Shown piece after piece: positions 1 to 48,959 of a DNA stretch of 64,000 nt. Source of the DNA: a bacterium (GTDB lineage Bacteria > Campylobacterota > Campylobacteria > Campylobacterales > Sulfurovaceae); NCBI GenBank assembly GCA_018822805.1, contig JAHJJU010000015.1, positions 1 through 64,000 of the forward strand, written 5' to 3'. The number at the start of each line of letters is the position of its first letter. The stretch's first letter is position 1. The notes beneath the pieces are model-generated. The model did no database searches and was not told the DNA's origin. It saw only the letters and a list, made by a program, of their open reading frames with translations. The position numbers and the translations under genes are program-made.

Positions 1-24
1 GGTAAGATTTTCAAAATTAAATTC

Positions 25-190
25 GTAGGACTAGCCGTAGCTAATTCAAGAATTTTATTTAGGAAAGATTGCCTATTTTTAGGCTTCCCTTTGGGTTTTA
101 CGAGGTTTCCCATAGGCTTAGACACATTTTTTTGAATTAACTGGTTAGTCCTGCAAAAATGTGCCGTTGCCTATAAAAAACCTCGTAAAA
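25..190 (+). ncRNA. Candidate structured RNA or gltX leader, family unknown
   Basis: Perfect 13-bp stem 96-108/178-190 (TTTTACGAGGTTT/AAACCTCGTAAAA), then 112-117/169-174 (ATAGGC/GCCTAT), then 123-131/155-163 (CACATTTTT/AAAAATGTG). Loop 132-154 is complementary to 25-49 (22 of 23 positions pair counting G-U, with a 2-nt bulge). Confidence 0.5.
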
Positions 191-242
191 TTGTGGCTAT
201 GGTATTCCGTCGAACTCAGGTTACTAGATTTTAGGAGAAAAA

Positions 243-1517
243 ATGCTTCGATTTGCTCCATCGCCTACTGGTGATATGCACATAGGTAACCTGCGGGTTG
301 CCATTTTAAATTATATTGTTGCACAACAGAGAAACGATCGATTTCAAATTCGTATGAATGATACCGACAGCCAACGAAATATAGAAGGGAAAGATACAGA
401 GATTATGATGGTATTAGAGAAATTTGCTCTCAAACATGACTCTGTATTTCATCAAAGCGAACACCTTAATATTCATCAAACTTTAGCAATTCGTCTTTTA
501 GATGAAGACAAAGCCTTTGTCTGTAGCTGTAGCGATGCACAGCTTGAAGCTGATCGTGACTCTGCAAAAGCCAATGACGTAGCCTACCGTTACGCTGAAC
601 GTTGTCAAGAGTTAAGCAAAGAAGCGTATACGGAACTCAAAGAGAGTGGACGCCCCTTTGTTATTCGTATTAAGAAACCTGATGAAGTGATTATTGGTCA
701 TGATATCGATTCATTTGTTATTTTAAGAAGCGATAGCACACCAACACACAATTTTGCTGCTGCTTGCGATGATATGTTGAGTGATATTGATTACATTATT
801 TGTGGAGAAGACCACATCAGTGATACACCAAAACAGATACACATTAAAAATCTTTTAGGCTATGAGAACGATACACAGTATGCACACCTACCTGTTATTC
901 TCAATGAAGAGGGTAAAAAAATGTCTAAAGAAGATGAAGCTTCTTCGGTGAAATGGTTGTTTGAACAAGGTTTTGTACCCGATGCCATTTTAAACTACCT
1001 CGTACTTTTGGGAAATTCAAAAGCACCTAAAGAGATTTTTACTTTACCTGAAGCGATTGAGTGGTTTGATATAACCCATATCTCTAAATCGGCTACTAAA
1101 TTTGACATGAGAAAACTACGGTTTATTAACCGTGAACACCTTAAGCTGATGGACGATAAACAGCTTTCGACACTTTTTGGTTTTGCAGATACCGACATAG
1201 GTAAACTGGCAAAAGTTTATTTAGAAGAGTGCAGTACCATTAATGAATTAAAAGAAAAAATAGGTTCAATTTTTACCCCTAAAGATTTTACAGGTGAATG
1301 GGGTGAGCAGATGAGCATTATGGCTAAAATTATTTTTAATGCTCCTGCATTTGAAACCTTTGATGCGTTAACAAAACACATTACGGATGAGAGTGGATTA
1401 AAAGGAGAAAACCTCTTTAAACCACTACGGTACCTCTTAACCGGAGCAGGAAATGGGCCTGAGTTAAGTGAAGTTTACCCATATATTAAATCTTATATTT
1501 TGGAGGTCGCGTCATGA
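243..1517 (+). CDS. gltX: Glutamyl-tRNA synthetase
   Basis: RFAPSPTGDMHIGNLR class I HIGH motif and KKMSKE (KMSKS-like) motif; SD aggag upstream. Confidence 0.93.
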   Translation: MLRFAPSPTGDMHIGNLRVAILNYIVAQQRNDRFQIRMNDTDSQRNIEGKDTEIMMVLEKFALKHDSVFHQSEHLNIHQTLAIRLLDEDKAFVCSCSDAQLEADRDSAKANDVAYRYAERCQELSKEAYTELKESGRPFVIRIKKPDEVIIGHDIDSFVILRSDSTPTHNFAAACDDMLSDIDYIICGEDHISDTPKQIHIKNLLGYENDTQYAHLPVILNEEGKKMSKEDEASSVKWLFEQGFVPDAILNYLVLLGNSKAPKEIFTLPEAIEWFDITHISKSATKFDMRKLRFINREHLKLMDDKQLSTLFGFADTDIGKLAKVYLEECSTINELKEKIGSIFTPKDFTGEWGEQMSIMAKIIFNAPAFETFDALTKHITDESGLKGENLFKPLRYLLTGAGNGPELSEVYPYIKSYILEVAS

Positions 1518-1792
1518 GCGCATTAATTTTTGCTATTGTTCAACTTTTACACTCGGTTATTAACCTATATATTTGGGTGGTTATTATTGCTGCTGTACTC
1601 TCTTTTGTACAGCTGGATCCTCGTAATCCTATTGTTGAAATACTCAACCGTCTAACACAACCGGCATTTAACTTTGTACGTCAAAAAATACCATTTGTGG
1701 TTGTTTCCGGAATTGACTTATCTCCGATTGTTATTATTTTTGGATTACAATTTCTTGATACTTTAATGATGCATGCTGTAATGGGAATGTAA
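1514..1792 (+). CDS. YggT family membrane protein
   Basis: Small hydrophobic protein with YggT-like LDPRNPIVEILNRLTQP motif; overlaps gltX stop. Confidence 0.85.
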   Translation: MSALIFAIVQLLHSVINLYIWVVIIAAVLSFVQLDPRNPIVEILNRLTQPAFNFVRQKIPFVVVSGIDLSPIVIIFGLQFLDTLMMHAVMGM

Positions 1793-3396
1793 TGAAAAAT
1801 AGCAAGAAGATTGTTTTTTTAACCCTCTTCTGCTGTTTTATACCCTATCTTTATGGACAAAACCTCTCTTTCCAAGAGATAGAGGCAATGCCCAACTCCT
1901 ATGCTAAAGATTACTACACTTGGCGTTTTTTACAAGAAGAAAGTACCTCTAAAGAAGAAGCGCTCACTGCCTATGAATGGACAAAACGTAAAAGTTATAA
2001 ACTGCGTAAAGCCATTCAAACTAAAATAGGATACACACCTCAAGAAAACACGGCTGAGACTAAAAAAGATCCAAATAATTATATTATTTACCCTTCAGTT
2101 GCAGCAAATAAGCGTAAAAAAGAATTAAAAAAGCTCTATGAAAAAATTCAAGCTCAAGGAAAATACTCAGATGTTTTAAAAGTTATGAGCAGTAACAAAC
2201 CTTTTAAAATGCTCGCTACCATGACCCCAAAAACCCAATGTTACATTTTTAATGGTGTGGGTTCAAAATATAGAAAAGCCTACTTTAATAAACCCTTTTC
2301 AAAAGAGCAACTGCAAAAGCTCATTCAAGAGGAGCAGTTTAACAGCTCTGTCCATAAAATAGTCACCACACATGCCCTACAACAAAGTAAAAAATCTTTG
2401 CTTTTAATCGAGGAAAACAACTTAAGTTTTGAATCAAACTTTTTACTTGCCATGAATGCTGTAGAGTACAATGAAAACACGATTGCCATTAACTTTTTAA
2501 ATTATGCAAAAAGTAAAACAAACTCTCAAGGTCACTATGACCAAATAGATTTTTGGTTCTATATGCTTACTAAAGATGAAAGCTATCTTCAAAACCTCAT
2601 AAAAAGTCATCAAGTAAATCTCTATACCTTACGGGCTAGAGATATTTTGAAAGAGCCCTACCCTAAAGTAGAAACTCCTGATTTAGGTTTTAATACAGTA
2701 AATAATTTTGATATTAATAACCCAATAGATTGGGAACATATAAAAATTAAAATGCTAGAGAATCCTGAACAACTTGATGCATTGGCTGAAAAATATAACG
2801 CTTATGAAACCGTAGGTATTTATGCCTACATCAAGGAAAAAGCATCAAAATATACCATTGCTTATTACCCTATGCCTTATCGTGAAGCAATGTGGGGCTA
2901 CAGTAGAGAACGTATGGCCATTCTTTATGCCATAGGTCGACAAGAGAGCCGTTTTATTCCTGCTTCGGTTTCGCCCTCTTATGCATTGGGAATGATGCAA
3001 ATCATGCCTTTTCTTATTAAACATTTGGCAAAAGAGCGAAAAGAAAAACTGGATTTAAATGAGATGTTTAACCCCTATGTTGCTGTATCTTATGCCAATC
3101 AACACATGAATTATTTGAACAAATGGCTCTACCATCCACTCTTTGTTGCCTATGCTTATAATGGAGGTATTGGATTTACAAAACGTACCATTCAAAGTGA
3201 GCACATGTTTAAAGAGGGGCAGTATGAACCCTACCTCAGCATGGAGCTTGTAGATTATTTAGAGTCCAGAGAGTATGCTAAAAAAGTCCTAACAAACTAC
3301 GTTATCTACCTAAATCTCTTAGGGTCTCAAACAAAGGTTTCTGACCTTTTGAATACTCTAAAATATCCTTCCCAAACCGATCGTTTTCGAAAATAA
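1792..3396 (+). CDS. Lytic transglycosylase, SLT domain
   Basis: C-terminal GRQESRFIPASVSPSYALGMMQIMP SLT catalytic motif; N-terminal signal peptide. Confidence 0.88.
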   Translation: MKNSKKIVFLTLFCCFIPYLYGQNLSFQEIEAMPNSYAKDYYTWRFLQEESTSKEEALTAYEWTKRKSYKLRKAIQTKIGYTPQENTAETKKDPNNYIIYPSVAANKRKKELKKLYEKIQAQGKYSDVLKVMSSNKPFKMLATMTPKTQCYIFNGVGSKYRKAYFNKPFSKEQLQKLIQEEQFNSSVHKIVTTHALQQSKKSLLLIEENNLSFESNFLLAMNAVEYNENTIAINFLNYAKSKTNSQGHYDQIDFWFYMLTKDESYLQNLIKSHQVNLYTLRARDILKEPYPKVETPDLGFNTVNNFDINNPIDWEHIKIKMLENPEQLDALAEKYNAYETVGIYAYIKEKASKYTIAYYPMPYREAMWGYSRERMAILYAIGRQESRFIPASVSPSYALGMMQIMPFLIKHLAKERKEKLDLNEMFNPYVAVSYANQHMNYLNKWLYHPLFVAYAYNGGIGFTKRTIQSEHMFKEGQYEPYLSMELVDYLESREYAKKVLTNYVIYLNLLGSQTKVSDLLNTLKYPSQTDRFRK

Positions 3397-3862
3397 GTTG
3401 CATATCATTTCCCTTTACGATGGGAAACTTTACTTTATAATAGGTACTCCAGTTGTTCATCATCGGCATCTGATACCGTAGAGGGTCATCTTTTTCCAAC
3501 TTCTTAATCTCTATAGGTTCGGCACCGTTGAGGGTTAAGAGATATCCTTTATTATTAAACTCACTTTTTTCACTGTCGGTAATGTATACTCCCACAAAAA
3601 AATACTCTGCATCGCTAACCGACATACATAAATTTTTACAATTATCATGGGTATAAACCGGGTTCAAATAGGTTGCTGTTAGCAATGCTTTTGTCTCCAA
3701 TGAAGCAATGAGTTGTGCTTTTTTTGTGTTTTGTAACGAGATGTGATAAATATCATCTTTTTTAAAAAGCTGCGAGATGTTTGAATTCTCTTTAAGTGTA
3801 CATCCACCTAAAATAAATGCTGTGCTAAGTGCTGATGAAAGTAGTAATATTTTTTTATACAT
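3302..3862 (-). CDS. Putative lipoprotein
   Basis: Start reassigned to MYKKILLLSSALSTAFILGGC (lipobox) at 3862. The supplied ORF start at 3961 would overlap mobB. Confidence 0.7.
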   Translation of the reverse strand: MYKKILLLSSALSTAFILGGCTLKENSNISQLFKKDDIYHISLQNTKKAQLIASLETKALLTATYLNPVYTHDNCKNLCMSVSDAEYFFVGVYITDSEKSEFNNKGYLLTLNGAEPIEIKKLEKDDPLRYQMPMMNNWSTYYKVKFPIVKGNDMQLIFENDRFGKDILEYSKGQKPLFETLRDLGR

Positions 3863-3939
3863 TAAGAACCTTTTAATTTGATCCATTTTAACACATTTCC
3901 TATAAAATTTTCTGTATAATTTGCACTTAAAGGAGAGAT

Positions 3940-4434
3940 ATGAAACGCATTGCTGTTGCATTTACCGGTCCATCAGGGAGTGGAAAGACCACACTTGTTG
4001 AAAAAATTTCAAAAATTTTGATTAAAGAGAGAGAAGTCGCGATTATCAAACATGACCCCAAAGATAAAGCTGTGTTTGACAAAGAGGGGAAAGACAGTCA
4101 CAAGTTCTCACAAACAGGTGCAGAAGTTGTGGTTGCTTCACCTACTCGTACCACATACTTCTCTAAACGTAACAAAACATTAGATGAAATCATTAAAATG
4201 TTTGATAATTTTGATATATTATTGGTTGAAGGTTTAAAGACTTTGGATCTTCCACGAATTGCAATTTTTAGAAACTCCATTGAAGAGAGTTATTTAACTT
4301 GCAGTGAAGCCATTGCCATTGATGAGACCATCAATGTAAGTGATTACAATATTCCTAATAATATTGATATTTTAAATTTAAACCATCCCCATGAGATTAT
4401 TGAGTGGATAGACAAAAATGCTAAACGCGTATAA
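3940..4434 (+). CDS. mobB: Molybdopterin-guanine dinucleotide biosynthesis protein B
   Basis: TGPSGSGKTTLVEKI P-loop, VVVASPTRTTY, LLVEGLK motifs. Confidence 0.9.
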   Translation: MKRIAVAFTGPSGSGKTTLVEKISKILIKEREVAIIKHDPKDKAVFDKEGKDSHKFSQTGAEVVVASPTRTTYFSKRNKTLDEIIKMFDNFDILLVEGLKTLDLPRIAIFRNSIEESYLTCSEAIAIDETINVSDYNIPNNIDILNLNHPHEIIEWIDKNAKRV

Positions 4435-4443
4435 AGGATAACA

Positions 4444-5295
4444 ATGAACGATATATTTGAGACCATTAAAACAATTGCTTTTGAGATTGACCATGTCATT
4501 AAAGCTGAAGACGTGGGTTACAGTGATTCAGAAAACTCTTCAGGTGAAGATCAACTAAAACTTGATGTTCAATCAGACCTTATTATAGAAAAAGCATTTG
4601 CCGATGTGGCTTCGGTTAAAGCACTCGTTAGTGAAGAGAAAGAAGGTGTTTTAGAATTGAGTCCTACAGGAAAATATACCGTATGTTATGACCCTCTCGA
4701 TGGTTCAAGTCTCGTCGATGTTAATCTCTCTGTAGGTTCAATTTTTGGAATTTATGAAGGCGAATTAGAAGGTAAAAATCTTGTTGCCTCTGCTTATACG
4801 GTTTATGGTCCAAGGGTTGAGCTGATTATTGCTACCCGAAAGGGTAAACCGAAGGTTTCTCGTGTTATTGATGGTAAATTTCAAGAGGTTTTTGAGCTAA
4901 CTATGAATGAAAAAGGAATATTTAACGCCAGTGGAGGAACCCAACAAAACTGGTGTGATTACCATAAAACGTTTATTGATGATCTCTTTGAAGAGGGTTA
5001 TCATTTACGTTATTCCGGTGGAATGGTACCGGACCTTCATCAGATTATGGTCAAAGGTGGGGGAATTTTCTCTTACCCGGGCACCTCGGATAAACCAAAT
5101 GGAAAACTACGACAACTTTTTGAAGTCATTCCTTTTGCACTGATGTATGAACAAGCAGGTGGACAAGCCATCAATAATAAAGGGATGAGACTGCTTGAAC
5201 TTGTTCCTTCACACCCACACGATACCAGTCCGTGTTTCTTTGGTTCAAACTATGAAATAACTGCTCTACGTGAAGCTTATGGGATCAAAGTGTAA
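4444..5295 (+). CDS. fbp: Class I fructose-1,6-bisphosphatase
   Basis: [12 protein letters not shown] and [25 protein letters not shown] motifs. Confidence 0.95.
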
Positions 5296-5298
5296 TAG

Positions 5299-5496
5299 AT
5301 GAGTGAAATTTCACTTGACGAATGGGAACTGACACTTCAAGTTAAAAAAAAAGAGCTTGAAGCGTGTCAAGTAACTCAAGGAGTAAAATCCTGTCTCTCC
5401 TGTCCTAAATTAAACCATTGTGAAATTCGTGATGCCTATGTTCATGCTGTGTACAATAGCATGAGTAAAGGTGCCGGAGGGGGATTTGAATTTTGA
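5299..5496 (+). CDS. Small cysteine-containing protein of unknown function
   Basis: 65 aa, CLSCPKLNHC cluster; tightly packed between fbp and the heme-binding ORF. Confidence 0.7.
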   Translation: MSEISLDEWELTLQVKKKELEACQVTQGVKSCLSCPKLNHCEIRDAYVHAVYNSMSKGAGGGFEF

Positions 5497-5933
5497 TATT
5501 TAAAAGTTTTTGGTTCTGGACACTCATTACTCTTGTCGCCATACAATTTATTCCAATGGATGTTCCTGAACAATTAGAAGGTAAAGCAGAAAATGAGATT
5601 AAAGCTCCTGAAGAGATAATGAACATTCTCAAACGTTCTTGTTATGTCTGCCACTCTAACAGTCTGGTTTATCCTTGGTATGATAAAATCGCTCCTGCTT
5701 CATGGTATGCCAAGAATCATGTTAAAAATGGTCGTAAAACACTCAATTTCTCACTATGGAGCGAATACACTAAAGAGGAACAACTCAAGTTGCTTGATAA
5801 CATTCCTAAATCAATAGCTATTCGTATGCCTCTTCCTTCTTATTTATGGCTTCATGAAGAAGCTACATTAACCAAAGAAGAGAAACAAAAATTCTCAAAA
5901 TGGGTAAAAAAATTAAAAGAAGAAGTTAAATAG
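5493..5933 (+). CDS. Membrane-anchored heme-binding domain protein
   Basis: N-terminal TM, CYVCHSN heme site, YPWYDKIAPASWYAKNHV as in the Haem_bd family. Confidence 0.8.
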   Translation: MIFKSFWFWTLITLVAIQFIPMDVPEQLEGKAENEIKAPEEIMNILKRSCYVCHSNSLVYPWYDKIAPASWYAKNHVKNGRKTLNFSLWSEYTKEEQLKLLDNIPKSIAIRMPLPSYLWLHEEATLTKEEKQKFSKWVKKLKEEVK

Positions 5934-43288: not shown

Positions 43289-44500
43289 TCACCCCTCCAA
43301 CTTCACCATAGGCTCCTCATCCTCCAACAAAAAGATAGGTTCTGAAAAAGGAGCCAACTTTGCCAAAAAATTCAACAACGAAATCACAGGTGAGCCATAA
43401 AAGAACTTCACATCAGGATTATAAACCCACAGTTGGTCAGCGTACTGGTAGACCTTGTGAGGGGTGTCACCTATGTTGTTGGCATCTCTATCAAATCCTG
43501 CGTAGTTGTCCCAGTAGTTTCCTACTATCTCATTTTCATTGGTTTTACTGCCTCGGCTATCGTTGACGATATCTTCAATATTGCCCATAATCGTATTGTT
43601 TTTGATGATATTGTTTTCACTCAATGAATGAAAGTGCAATGCTTCGGCATTATAGAGTACACGATTTCCCTCTATCCAGTTGTTGGTATCGGGTTCAAAA
43701 GGTGACCTATCGATGTAGACTCCTTGAGCACAATAGATAACGGTGTTGTCCTTAATCGTAAAATTAGAGACATCCTTTAACCCTATCCCCATACCTGTCG
43801 CCCCCAGTGAACTCTGCACCACATTCCCCGTTGCAATGGTATCTTTGGAGTACATAAAAAATATCCCTACCGAGTTGTATCTGTAGGTGTTGTTGCGTAC
43901 CAAGTTTTTACCTGCGTACATAAAGTGCAACGAGTAGCGACAATGCTCTCCATAGTTTTCAACAATATCGTTTCCATGTGAATACCACACCACCATATCG
44001 CGTGATTTGATGAGCCTATTTTTTTTAATAATGTTATCGTTGCTGTACCAAAGACGCAATCCATCACCACGAAGTCCCAAATCGAAATCTTTGGAGGTGA
44101 TGCTGTTGTTCTGTACCAATGAATTGGAGACCATCTGCATATCAATCCCAAAGAGACAATCATCTATCACGCAATCACTAATCTCACACTGCTTGGCATC
44201 TTTGATTAAAATACCTGCATCGAGCGTATGGGTCATCGCTCCACTGTTTACAATTTTTAGATTTTTGAGTGTCACAAAAGAACTCTCTACGGTAATGACG
44301 GTTCCTTTTCCCTCTCCATCGATAATCACCCCATCCTCTTTGCCTATAATGGTAAGGGGCTTGTTAATGACCACTGAACCCTTATAAAGACCTGCTGGAA
44401 GCTTCAAGATGGAACCCTCGGGGGCTTTGTCTATTGCGTCTTGCAACGCACTTCCGTTTGCAAGAGTCAACAGTAGTAAAAAAATAAAAAATAGTCTCAA
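43289..44500 (-). CDS. nosD: Nitrous oxide reductase maturation protein NosD
   Basis: Signal peptide; parallel beta-helix repeats; nos context. Confidence 0.9.
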   Translation of the reverse strand: MRLFFIFLLLLTLANGSALQDAIDKAPEGSILKLPAGLYKGSVVINKPLTIIGKEDGVIIDGEGKGTVITVESSFVTLKNLKIVNSGAMTHTLDAGILIKDAKQCEISDCVIDDCLFGIDMQMVSNSLVQNNSITSKDFDLGLRGDGLRLWYSNDNIIKKNRLIKSRDMVVWYSHGNDIVENYGEHCRYSLHFMYAGKNLVRNNTYRYNSVGIFFMYSKDTIATGNVVQSSLGATGMGIGLKDVSNFTIKDNTVIYCAQGVYIDRSPFEPDTNNWIEGNRVLYNAEALHFHSLSENNIIKNNTIMGNIEDIVNDSRGSKTNENEIVGNYWDNYAGFDRDANNIGDTPHKVYQYADQLWVYNPDVKFFYGSPVISLLNFLAKLAPFSEPIFLLEDEEPMVKLEG

Positions 44501-44512
44501 ATTTTAACCCTT

Positions 44513-44605
44513 GTAGGGTGCGTTTCCCAACGCACCACCCATTTCATTTTCAAAACAGATATTTAATTTATGCCGATTTTTGGTGCGTTGGGAAACGCAC
44601 CCTAC
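44513..44605. repeat. REPIN-like inverted pair of REP hairpins between nosB and nosD
   Basis: GTAGGGTGCGTTTCCCAACGCACCA (44513-44537) and exact reverse complement (44581-44605); each arm folds as GGTGCGTT-N4-AACGCACC. Confidence 0.9.
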
Positions 44606-45381
44606 GCTGTCTCACGCATCGCTTTTTGTTTAGCAAAAAATGCCAACAAACTAAGCAACGAAATCGCCACCAACAGATAGAATCCAATCGTAGGGTAAGA
44701 GTGCGTCACAAACTGTGCAATCTTTCCATCTCCAAATACCGTTGGCATAAAGGGTTTGATTTTAAACGCTCCCCAGTCGTGCAGATTATGCCCAAACCAG
44801 TACAACCAATAGGAGTAGTCAGCAATAAAGAGTATCGGTAACGAGACAGGAATCAACATTACATAGGTGAAGATTTTTTTATTATAAGCAATAAAATAAA
44901 TCATAAAAAGCGTTAACAGTAACAGAGCATAAATCCCAATCTCTCGCTCTATCGTACCCCCAACCCACATCGGGTCCATCCCCACATAGTGGTTAATGGT
45001 GTTCATCTCATGAATCTCTCCACTAAATCCATCAAAATGAAAAAAGACAGGAATCCCCTCTGGAAATGCCTCTTTTGGGTAGTTGGGTGCTTCAAGTGAA
45101 ACAGCCCAAATAGGTAAGGAAGCGACCCCTATCTCTGAAGCACTTTTTACCATCTCCTCCAGATTGTTATGAGCCTCTTTAGGGGTTGCAATACTCTTAT
45201 ATCTTCCCTGATTGTAGAAGTTCCAAACCGACTGACTAAACGCTGAAATTTCTTCACTCTTACCCTCATCTACTTTGTTGAGCGTACCATGAAACGCTAT
45301 CATAGGAAAAGTAAAAGAGAGCGTCAAAACAATCAACGCCAAAGAGGCAAAAATCTTTGCCTTTGTAAAACTTGGATGCAT
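44602..45381 (-). CDS. nosB: NosB-like membrane protein
   Basis: Multi-TM; position between nosZ and nosD as in Wolinella nosZBDG; start MHPSFTKAK at 45381. Confidence 0.75.
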   Translation of the reverse strand: MHPSFTKAKIFASLALIVLTLSFTFPMIAFHGTLNKVDEGKSEEISAFSQSVWNFYNQGRYKSIATPKEAHNNLEEMVKSASEIGVASLPIWAVSLEAPNYPKEAFPEGIPVFFHFDGFSGEIHEMNTINHYVGMDPMWVGGTIEREIGIYALLLLTLFMIYFIAYNKKIFTYVMLIPVSLPILFIADYSYWLYWFGHNLHDWGAFKIKPFMPTVFGDGKIAQFVTHSYPTIGFYLLVAISLLSLLAFFAKQKAMRETA

Positions 45382-45460
45382 ATTTTCTCCTCGAAGTTTA
45401 TGATTTGTTATCATAATTATAACTTTGGGTTTAGTATAGGGTAAAAAGGAAAGAAGAAGT

Positions 45461-45474
45461 ATGATTTATATCAA
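45461..45474. promoter_or_regulatory. FNR/Crp-type box upstream of nosB
   Basis: ATGATTTATATCAA (reverse TTGATATAAATCAT). Confidence 0.6.
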
Positions 45475-45595
45475 GGGTTGGAGGGTTTAGTTATTTTTCA
45501 AAGGTGACTACTGAATCTGTTCTCACTTATCATAAATATATAAGCCCTCAAACAGCTCTTTTTTTCTCTCTAATTACTTTAGAATATACTCTAAC

Positions 45596-45997
45596 CTAAA
45601 CCCAATTATCCAATTCCAACCCCTCAACTCTCTCAAACTCCCTAATATTATTAGTAACCAGCACCAAATCTAAAGCACGAGCGTGACCTGCTATCTGCAT
45701 ATCCATATTGCCTATCACTTGACCTTTTTTCTCTAAATTGGCTCTAATCTTTCCATACTCTATCGAAGCCGTAAAATCATAATCAACTATCTCAAAAGGC
45801 ATTAAAAAACTTTCTATTGCCTTTAAATTTTTTTCTCTATGTTCACTCTTAAAAGCTCCATACATTAACTCTGAAACGGTAATGGTTGAGATAGATAATT
45901 CACCAATCTCAAACTCTCTAAATCGCTCTTTGACACTTTTTGGCTTATTTTTAATTATATAGATACAGATATTGGTATCAAGCATCATTTTTTTCAA
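45596..45997 (-). CDS. vapC: VapC-type PIN-domain toxin
   Basis: MLDTNICIYIIKNKP; STITVSELMYG; IGNMDMQIAGHARALDLVLVTNNIREFERV. Confidence 0.92.
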   Translation of the reverse strand: MKKMMLDTNICIYIIKNKPKSVKERFREFEIGELSISTITVSELMYGAFKSEHREKNLKAIESFLMPFEIVDYDFTASIEYGKIRANLEKKGQVIGNMDMQIAGHARALDLVLVTNNIREFERVEGLELDNWV

Positions 45998-46230
45998 AAC
46001 AGATTCTCTCTCTCTTGTTTAGGCTCTGTTCTAATCTGCATAAAGTCATCAGAAAAATCATCAAGATTATCAAACATGGTATCCCATACTGTTTTATCTG
46101 ATTTTGGAATAAGTACAACCATCCCATTTATTTTTTTTATGAAGACCTCTTTTAGGTTCTCAAATCGAAACTCTTTAGGTAATCGAACAGCTTGACTTTG
46201 ACCATTTTGAAACAGTTTTGCAGTTGCCAT
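45994..46230 (-). CDS. vapB: VapB-type antitoxin (AbrB-like)
   Basis: ATAKLFQNGQSQAVRLPKEFRF; overlaps vapC start. Confidence 0.92.
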   Translation of the reverse strand: MATAKLFQNGQSQAVRLPKEFRFENLKEVFIKKINGMVVLIPKSDKTVWDTMFDNLDDFSDDFMQIRTEPKQERENLF

Positions 46231-46358
46231 CATAGTAGGCTCCTTGAGTTAGTATATATTTTTTAGTATATATGATTTTTGAGTTTATGTCAAGGGTTGA
46301 AGGGTTATAATGCAAGACAGACCCAAAAGCCCATCTCGCAAAAGATTAAAAAAAATCA

Positions 46359-48959
46359 CTAAAACAAATTAGCATTCTCATCAATCCATTTGAAGTATTC
46401 AATCATATCTTTAACTTCTTCATCACTCATATGCTGGTTAGGCATTTTAAGGTTGAAGTAATCAATCATCCCTTTTACATAAGGGTCATCGTACATCTTT
46501 TCCGGCTCTTTAATGAAATTGGCAACCCATTTTTCACCATCGGCACCGTGTCGTTCAAGTACACCTGTTAGGTCTGGACCAGAGCTTACTTTACCAACCA
46601 CGTGACAACCTGAACATCCACCCTCATCAAAGACTCTGGCTCCTCTTTCTGCTGCAGGAGATTGCTTGGTTGCGATAAGCCTTACCAATACATCTTTGGC
46701 TCTGATTCCAACATCGGCTGTTTTTACCATGAGCTGCCAAATCATGTTCTCGAAAAGAATGGCTTTCTCCATGTCACCGGCTTTAACAGCCTCATCAGAG
46801 AGTTTTTTCTGTGCAGGAATTTGACCATACTGTGCAAAGGCATCATCCACAAGGTCAGCGACTACTTTGTGGTCTTGGAACTTGTTCTCTTTTAGGAACT
46901 TCACCACCGACTGAATAACAGCGTCTGTTGCAGCGTTGACGGCAACCGTTTTGTCATACTCAGCTTTAAGCTCTTCTGCTGTCATGGTTTTCATCTTAAG
47001 CTTTTGAGCCGATTCATACTTTTTGTCCGGGTCTTTAACCATGAGGTAACCCATCATTTCTAAGTGCAGTGCTGAACAGAACTCGGTACAGTAGTACGGG
47101 AATACACCTTCAATATCTGCTGTAAATTTAATGGTCGAAGTCTCACCTGGCTCCAATGACGCATGAACATCATAGTGGTCAACGGTAAATCCATGGGTCT
47201 CATCTTGAGCTCTCTCTAGGTTTGTGAGGTGCATGGTAACCACATCACCTTTGTTCACCGTAATTCGCTCTGGGTTAATATGTGAACGAACCATGGTTGC
47301 ATAGACCGTTACATTTTTACCATCTCTTACGATTTTCTCTTGACCGGCCAGTGTTTTACCTTCGTGGATTTTACCTGTTTTGGTATTGGTTCCCATTGGA
47401 TAGCGTACATGTGGGTGCAGTTTCTCTGCTCTGATCGCTACAGCTTGGTGAGGTTCACCTAAAGGTAGAGGCATGTCCACCAACAAATCCATCGTCTTAC
47501 CACTCACATCAATCAGCTGGTGATTTTGTGGATGCAGAGGACCAACATTTTGGAATCTATCAATTGCCAATTTATTCAAAGAGATAATATACTTCCCTTG
47601 TGGGTCAGCCGATTTCCCTTCCATTCCACAAAGATGTCCTACATTGTAATGTACATTCTCTTTATCAAGCACTTTGAGGTCTTTGTAGTTCCATTTTACA
47701 ATCTGACTGTCCACATAGAGTGACGTATAAATCTCCCCATCTACATTGGAGTACTGATTGTGCAATGGTCCAAGACCCAATTCAACTTGACCATGAAGTG
47801 ACGCTTTCATATCTAAAATAGGAATACCATAAGGGTCTTTTCCTACATACTTTTTGTCTGCAATCAGTTTTTTGATTTTACTCCATTTATAGACAGAAGC
47901 ATGGGTATCTAGTTTACCACAAACCGTAATGTACTCACCATCTGGACTCACATCGACACCATGTGGAGATTTTGGTTCAGGAATCAAGAAAAGAGCATCA
48001 TTTTTAATCGCCACATCCATAGGTACAATGGTGTGACCATTAACCGTTTGAATGTTTTTCTTATCTTTTGCCAGTTCTGCTAACTTTTTCCAGTTATAAA
48101 CATGTAAAAAGTCCGTGTCATTTCTACTCATACCAGCCTCATTTGGTGGCATACCCACTTCAATTCCCCCTGTATACATCTCAGAGTTAAATGAGTTGGT
48201 AAACGCCCAACCGTCACTCACTCCTTTACCTGAATCGGACAAATCTTGCATGTACGGAGGCATCTCAATAGTAAAGGAGTTCTCCTCTTTGATTCGCCCC
48301 TCTTTGTTGTCAAACTTCCACATGGTTACCCCACCACGATAAGTCTCTTTGTACTCTTCAATTGAGTGATAGTTGTTATCAAACGGTGCAGCATACTGTG
48401 CAGCTTCAATAATATAGTCAGAGTTTTGAGTAAAAAATGCACCACCGTGAGCCGATTTGAACACAGGGTTCACCACAATCTGCTTGGTCTCAAAATCCTC
48501 TAGGTCAATAATTGCAATTCTAGGGTTCGCTTTATCGTTAATCGCCAACCATCGACCATCATACTTACCATCTTTTTCAGAAATCGCCGGGTGGTGTGTA
48601 TCACCCCAATTAATCTCTCTACCTCGTACATTACCCTGTCTAAGAACTTTGAGAGAATCCTCATCAAACCCATACCCTTGCCAAGGCTCCGGCGTAAATA
48701 CAGCAATGTATTTCAAAATTCTCATCGATGGAACCCCATAAACAATCACTTGTCCACTCTGTCCACCTGAACTAAAAACCACAAACTCATCTCTACCACC
48801 TGTAGGATTGTAGGTTTTGGCTGCACGAATTACATCATTCTCTGTTAACCCTCTCTTCTTCATTACCTTTTCAAGTTCACCACTATCTGCCTGTGCTACC
48901 GAAACAGCCAGTGTTGTTCCCAAAATAAGTGAAGAGAGTCTACTAAACATACCAGTCAT
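46359..48959 (-). CDS. nosZ: Clade II nitrous oxide reductase with C-terminal cytochrome c domain (cNosZ)
   Basis: Sec-type signal; CuA motif YYCTEFCSALHLEMMGY; C-terminal CSGCHVVG heme site; GDTHHPAIS. Confidence 0.97.
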   Translation of the reverse strand: MTGMFSRLSSLILGTTLAVSVAQADSGELEKVMKKRGLTENDVIRAAKTYNPTGGRDEFVVFSSGGQSGQVIVYGVPSMRILKYIAVFTPEPWQGYGFDEDSLKVLRQGNVRGREINWGDTHHPAISEKDGKYDGRWLAINDKANPRIAIIDLEDFETKQIVVNPVFKSAHGGAFFTQNSDYIIEAAQYAAPFDNNYHSIEEYKETYRGGVTMWKFDNKEGRIKEENSFTIEMPPYMQDLSDSGKGVSDGWAFTNSFNSEMYTGGIEVGMPPNEAGMSRNDTDFLHVYNWKKLAELAKDKKNIQTVNGHTIVPMDVAIKNDALFLIPEPKSPHGVDVSPDGEYITVCGKLDTHASVYKWSKIKKLIADKKYVGKDPYGIPILDMKASLHGQVELGLGPLHNQYSNVDGEIYTSLYVDSQIVKWNYKDLKVLDKENVHYNVGHLCGMEGKSADPQGKYIISLNKLAIDRFQNVGPLHPQNHQLIDVSGKTMDLLVDMPLPLGEPHQAVAIRAEKLHPHVRYPMGTNTKTGKIHEGKTLAGQEKIVRDGKNVTVYATMVRSHINPERITVNKGDVVTMHLTNLERAQDETHGFTVDHYDVHASLEPGETSTIKFTADIEGVFPYYCTEFCSALHLEMMGYLMVKDPDKKYESAQKLKMKTMTAEELKAEYDKTVAVNAATDAVIQSVVKFLKENKFQDHKVVADLVDDAFAQYGQIPAQKKLSDEAVKAGDMEKAILFENMIWQLMVKTADVGIRAKDVLVRLIATKQSPAAERGARVFDEGGCSGCHVVGKVSSGPDLTGVLERHGADGEKWVANFIKEPEKMYDDPYVKGMIDYFNLKMPNQHMSDEEVKDMIEYFKWIDENANLF

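Follow-up and report, generated by a model that had tools for sequence, protein, structure and literature searches.

A vapBC Module Between nosZ and nosB

The window, the whole stretch of 64,000 nucleotides of DNA from a Sulfurovum-like bacterium that was analysed, carries a nos gene cluster for nitrous oxide respiration; a toxin-antitoxin (TA) pair, vapBC (minus strand, 46233-45596), separates nosZ from nosB there, on the same strand as the nos genes. The genes at and around the gap are as follows.

46359..48959, minus strand: nosZ, clade II Sec-dependent nitrous oxide reductase (TIGR04246, 881.7 bits, above cutoff)
45994..46233, minus strand: vapB, antitoxin of 79 aa, AbrB/MazE type (PF04014, NF040493, NF047862; VapB chains 6nkl, 3zvk, 3tnd)
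45596..45997, minus strand: vapC, PIN-domain toxin of 133 aa, tRNA(fMet)-endonuclease family (PF01850, NF047863)
44602..45414, minus strand: nosB, with orthologues in Campylobacterota, heading a nosBD... unit
43289..44500, minus strand: nosD (TIGR04247, 432 bits)

VapC scores above cutoff against PF01850 (67.8 bits) and NF047863 (184.8 bits), aligns with 3tnd_A at E=4e-40, and retains the acidic residues D7, E43, and D99 that are conserved in PIN-domain toxins of VapBC pairs; VapB is above cutoff for NF040493 and just below it for NF047862. As in type II operons, the antitoxin gene comes first, and the two genes overlap by 4 nt. Gene order, the 4-nt overlap, an AbrB-type VapB, a PIN-domain VapC with its acidic residues, and a sigma70-type promoter with a repeat over the -10 are all shared with the tRNA(fMet)-specific VapBC subfamily (PDB 3tnd, 6nkl, 3zvk; NF047863), from which the window pair differs in sitting in a nos cluster and otherwise shows nothing unusual. 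Judged by these features, vapBC looks intact, with its own promoter. Plasmid-borne relatives of VapC are abundant, all less than 60% identical, and no recent plasmid donor was found among them.

The Closest Relative Carries an Empty Site

In a preliminary description of this DNA, vapBC was taken to be an insertion flanked by a direct repeat. Two 26-mers (45465-45490 and 46284-46309) do lie exactly where they had been placed, with 21 of 26 positions identical, and both are preceded by ATGATTT on the plus strand, the vapB-side copy with 8 extra bases. No other pair of 26-mers from the two gaps (nosZ-vapB and vapC-nosB) matches better; 21/26 is reached by 1 of 1,000 dinucleotide-shuffle pairs, and no further 26-mer in the window matches at 19 positions or more. 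A repeat search delimits the repeat proper to 23 bp (21/23, 91% identical), with the copies 819 bp apart. At up to three mismatches, the 23-bp motif has only these two sites in the 2.79-Mb genome; with just two genome copies, an att-like or dispersed sequence was dropped as its identity.

46284..46306, minus strand: vapB-side 23-bp repeat copy, AACCCTTCAACCCTTGACATAAA (blastn to the empty site, alignment)
45488..46283, minus strand: inserted segment between the repeat copies, 796 bp, absent in the closest relative (blastn breaks at 46284 and 45487)
45465..45487, minus strand: nosB-side 23-bp repeat copy, AACCCTCCAACCCTTGATATAAA (repeat search, blastn)

Comparison of the nosZ-nosB junction among relatives bears out the insertion: vapBC is not present throughout the clade, and the closest relative, Sulfurovum sp. 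SulCav_FS06-10 (G008; locus L005 = L078; NosB 97% identical to that of the window), has an empty site with a single repeat copy. There, nosZ lies directly before nosB at a distance of 126 bp, as against 948 bp in the window, with vapBC absent from the gap; no vapC relative was found in this genome, which is 86% complete. Alignment of L078 with the window by blastn yields two colinear blocks (2-4950 to 51226-46284 and 4928-5806 to 45487-44609) that overlap by exactly 23 bp, namely the repeat, single in L078 and double in the window. Flanks that overlap in this manner against an empty site indicate that the insertion is young and duplicated a short piece of its target. Three bases common to both window copies differ from the relative (AACCCTYCAACCC vs. 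AACCTTCCAATTC), which fits a duplication in the lineage of the window; a change in the relative itself would give the same difference. The clean empty site comes from one close relative, and the source genome, in 121 contigs, was read from the assembly alone; an assembly or strain-mix artefact could conceivably have produced the junction.

The vapB-side copy AACCCTTCAACCCTTGACATAAA consists of 12 bp of nos-derived sequence and 11 bp in common with the vapBC promoter. Within the repeat, the 12 bp AACCCTYCAACC appear, from the alignments, to be the part necessarily nos-derived on both sides and hence an unambiguous duplication of about 12 bp; they match at 11/12 between the copies. The duplicated target thus comprises 12 bp that are unambiguous and 11 bp common to insert and target. 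With the clearly nos-derived part this short (just 12 bp, 11/12 identical), the donor may instead have already carried a similar stretch beside vapBC.

One Half of the Repeat Belongs to the vapBC Promoter

The preliminary description held the vapB-proximal repeat copy to be a broken FNR box. The region reads otherwise when aligned with vapBC copies from elsewhere.

46265..46293, minus strand: predicted vapBC promoter, -35 TTGACA (46293-46288), 17-bp spacer, -10 TATACT (46270-46265), matching consensus at 11/12
46251..46273, minus strand: candidate operator for VapB/VapBC; its two ATATATACT motifs overlie the -10 and hardly vary among six vapBC copies

Relatives of vapBC with ~78-92% DNA identity occur in five genomes (G031, G025, G021, G023, and G019) at unrelated loci with unrelated flanks, and their homology to the window copy begins at or just past CTTGACAT and stops within ~30 bp after vapC. 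All six copies (the window and five relatives) share the order TTGACAT, 17 bp, a -10 within TATATACT, a second ATATATACT-like motif, and then AAGGAG, with TTGACAT and TATATACT invariant. Because the TTGACA in this half of the repeat is kept in five relatives at unrelated loci, what had been read as a broken FNR box is the vapBC -35 region. The vapB-adjacent half of the vapB-side copy, CTTGACATAAA, contains this -35; as the end of the insert, it is identical at 10/11 positions to CTTGATATAAA, the FNR-type box of nosB in the target, a microhomology. The seeming link of the repeat to nos control would be a look-alike, the stretch concerned being, on the evidence of its conservation, the promoter of vapBC itself. 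The ATATATACT repeat over the -10 is likely the VapB site and falls outside the direct repeat.

The same resemblance might be thought to account for the whole repeat, with a -35 box and an FNR box that look alike and no duplication. The CTTGAYATAAA half is indeed such a -35/FNR resemblance; the other 12 bp, however, are neither -35 nor FNR sequence, match at 11/12, and, from either side, run colinear with the empty site. Together with the rarity of 21/26 matches among the shuffles, this makes chance or operator similarity a very improbable account.

Beyond vapBC, the insert contains one gene relic and nothing else.

45521..45574, minus strand: AAA-ATPase-like gene relic, ERKKELFEGLYIYDK and then a stop (DNA identity to coding DNA)

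Coding DNA of the same genome (G000:C14 and C32) matches these 54 bp at 87% and 84% identity, and the stretch also matches many loci in the genus, spread over as many as 20 of the 34 genus genomes and sometimes in several copies each. We take the matching genes to be AAA-ATPase-like; no NCBIfam family matched them. The relic presumably came along with vapBC from an earlier location. For the stretch between the relic and the nosB-side repeat, no match or donor was found.

A clean 23-bp duplication is a usual mark of transposition, and a transposase acting in trans could have moved a non-autonomous element and left a 23-bp target-site duplication. No terminal inverted repeats are seen at the ends of the insert, though, and there is no transposase within it; the 3' flanks differ in each vapBC copy; and the vapB half of the repeat is sequence of the module. 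We regard classical transposition as unlikely.

Empty sites for other vapBC copies (whole loci L024, L026, and L028) were not found, as their flanks matched on different contigs or on one side only. A candidate for L028, G019:C183, is best explained by a deletion that begins at the -35 and stops near the end of vapC, with a few-bp microhomology: this locus (L213; reverse strand, near 457) is a near-copy of L028 in the same assembly that has lost vapBC and kept a vapC tail. Another vapC tail relic lies at G020:C52 737-779.

nosB Has an FNR-type Box of Its Own in Most Campylobacterota

The nosB-proximal repeat copy had been described as an intact FNR-type box, and such a box is present (45474-45461, minus strand); a hairpin follows nosZ.

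45461..45474, minus strand: FNR/Crp-type box of nosB, TTGATATAAATCAT, intact, conserved in G008 and at three further loci (L006, L008, L013)
46312..46339, minus strand: hairpin just past nosZ, GCGAGATGGGCTTTTGGGTCTGTCTTGC, without a T-tract (RNA fold; also in G008)

The predicted box is palindromic and TTGA-N6-TCAA-like, as is typical of the FNR/Crp family, and is conserved upstream of nosB. Counting the pattern TTGA[TC]N4[AG]TCA or its mirror form in 88 distinct Campylobacterota nosZ-nosB gaps gave a box in 59, against 0.4 expected (shuffles, maximum 3). Further boxes in the window lie upstream of nosZ (49103 and 49161) and of the NapG-like gene nosG (43269). In 87/87 gaps tested, the 80 nt that follow nosZ have a folding energy below -10 kcal/mol (raw values). 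For Nitrosophilus labii, a separate nosB start has been predicted, and 48 bases upstream there is an exact TTGA-N6-TCAA box (PMC11539149); nosB forms a separate unit there, with a box of the same type as here, and the window differs in having a TA module between the nosZ and nosB units. Boxes before nosB, hairpins after nosZ, and the N. labii start together indicate that nosZ and nosB were most likely under separate promoters before vapBC arrived, so vapBC did not newly split an operon as previously proposed.

The earlier interpretation went further: the insertion was to have duplicated the nosB promoter or operator and divided the nos operon, with nos expression or inheritance brought under TA control. 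A nos-derived direct repeat does flank vapBC, and a short stretch upstream of nosB was indeed duplicated; that duplication amounts to 12-23 bp, though, not to a promoter, and its vapB-side half is the -35 region of vapBC. The promoter region on the nosB side is colinear with the closest relative from the box onwards (blastn), and nosB has its own box across Campylobacterota in any case (PMC11539149). As to TA control of the nos genes, no terminator-like site was found between vapC and nosB, so read-through into nosB is possible; nothing points to control by VapB. Duplication of a promoter with TA control is, on this balance, very unlikely.

A Mobile Module Probably Joined at a Microhomology

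The reading we favor, with a probability of roughly 0.75 for the explanation as a whole, is that a mobile, self-contained vapBC module equipped with its own promoter entered the nosZ-nosB gap, by copying or by insertion, fairly recently, after the split from SulCav_FS06-10, leaving a short target duplication. The join would have been made at the resemblance between the -35 region of the module, CTTGACATAAA, and the FNR-type box of nosB, CTTGATATAAA; a template switch or another microhomology-guided join that resumed copying ~12-23 bp upstream in the target would duplicate those 12-23 bp on the far side in one step. We infer this joining mechanism from a single event. About 90 bp of donor flank, including the AAA-ATPase-like relic, would have been carried in with the module. 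In the resulting arrangement, transcription of vapBC would start at its own promoter, with autoregulation at the -10, and the FNR-type promoter would still serve nosB and the later genes, to which read-through from vapBC may perhaps contribute. The module could settle here because insertions are tolerated in a spacer with a hairpin on one side and an independent promoter on the other. TA modules are able to stabilise parts of a genome (PMC2654758); stabilisation of nos is possible in principle and would be secondary, if any. Overall, this is an ordinary mobile TA module with a well-resolved junction.

A precedent comes from Helicobacter pylori, also in Campylobacterota, where the insertion of restriction-modification genes duplicated a long stretch of the target (Nobusato et al. 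2000, as described in PMC1643837 and cited in PMC2654758). According to that description (PMC1643837), an addiction-type gene pair lies between direct repeats of the target that are single in the empty strain, and no transposase is involved. The same holds in the window, with one repeat copy at the empty site (G008/L078) and a flanking 23-bp repeat without a transposase. The two cases differ in that the genes here are a type II TA pair, and the duplication is just 12-23 bp, with a 10/11 microhomology between insert end and target (PMC1643837). A literature search on nosZ, toxin-antitoxin pairs, and Sulfurovum, judged by title and abstract, turned up nothing on point. The locus offers a clean before/after pair for a TA module entering a respiratory gene cluster, with the edge resolved to the module's own -35 box, and a caution that what looks like a duplicated, decayed operator may be a -35 box next to an FNR box.

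Other Occupants of the nosZ-nosB Gap

The 88 distinct Campylobacterota gaps have a median length of 170 bp, and only three contain genes, two of these being TA modules: vapBC in the window, YefM-YoeB in the Sulfurovum-like genome G018 (L013/L134), and an antisense cytochrome c gene in G001 (L009/L107). Gene-bearing gaps make up 3 of the 7 resolved gaps in the genus of the window and 0 of 81 others (Fisher p = 3e-4, post hoc and with few genomes), and the FNR-type box stays on the nosB side in all three. YefM-YoeB (L013 857-1365; G018:C167) is above cutoff for TIGR02116 and, for the antitoxin, TIGR01552; it is an insertion independent of vapBC, and no convincing direct repeat was found between its two gaps. 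The antisense cytochrome c gene in G001 encodes 140 aa; G028 has a gene like it, placed divergent to nosB (L022 2538-2873). One relative (L112) has nosZ inverted relative to nosB, the two pointing away from each other.

The gap is possibly a recurrent landing site. A stronger version, unlikely in our estimation, is that it serves as a recurrent TA docking site in Sulfurovum-like bacteria, where the nosB FNR box would land TA modules through its resemblance to their -35, and docked modules would help to retain a patchy nos cluster. Should landing prove recurrent (two TA families so far), Sulfurovum nos clusters would offer a natural setting in which to ask whether dispensable respiratory clusters gain protection from TA modules. 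Among the 34 genus genomes searched, several of them incomplete, nosB was found in 10.

A second element sits farther along the cluster: a 93-bp palindromic MITE/REP-like element (window 44513-44605), which is lacking in SulCav_FS06-10, lies between nosB and nosD and supplies the stop codon of nosB. Its arm, GTAGGGTGCGTTTCCCAACGCACC, has 29 matches in the genome at up to three mismatches, several of them paired ~69 bp apart.
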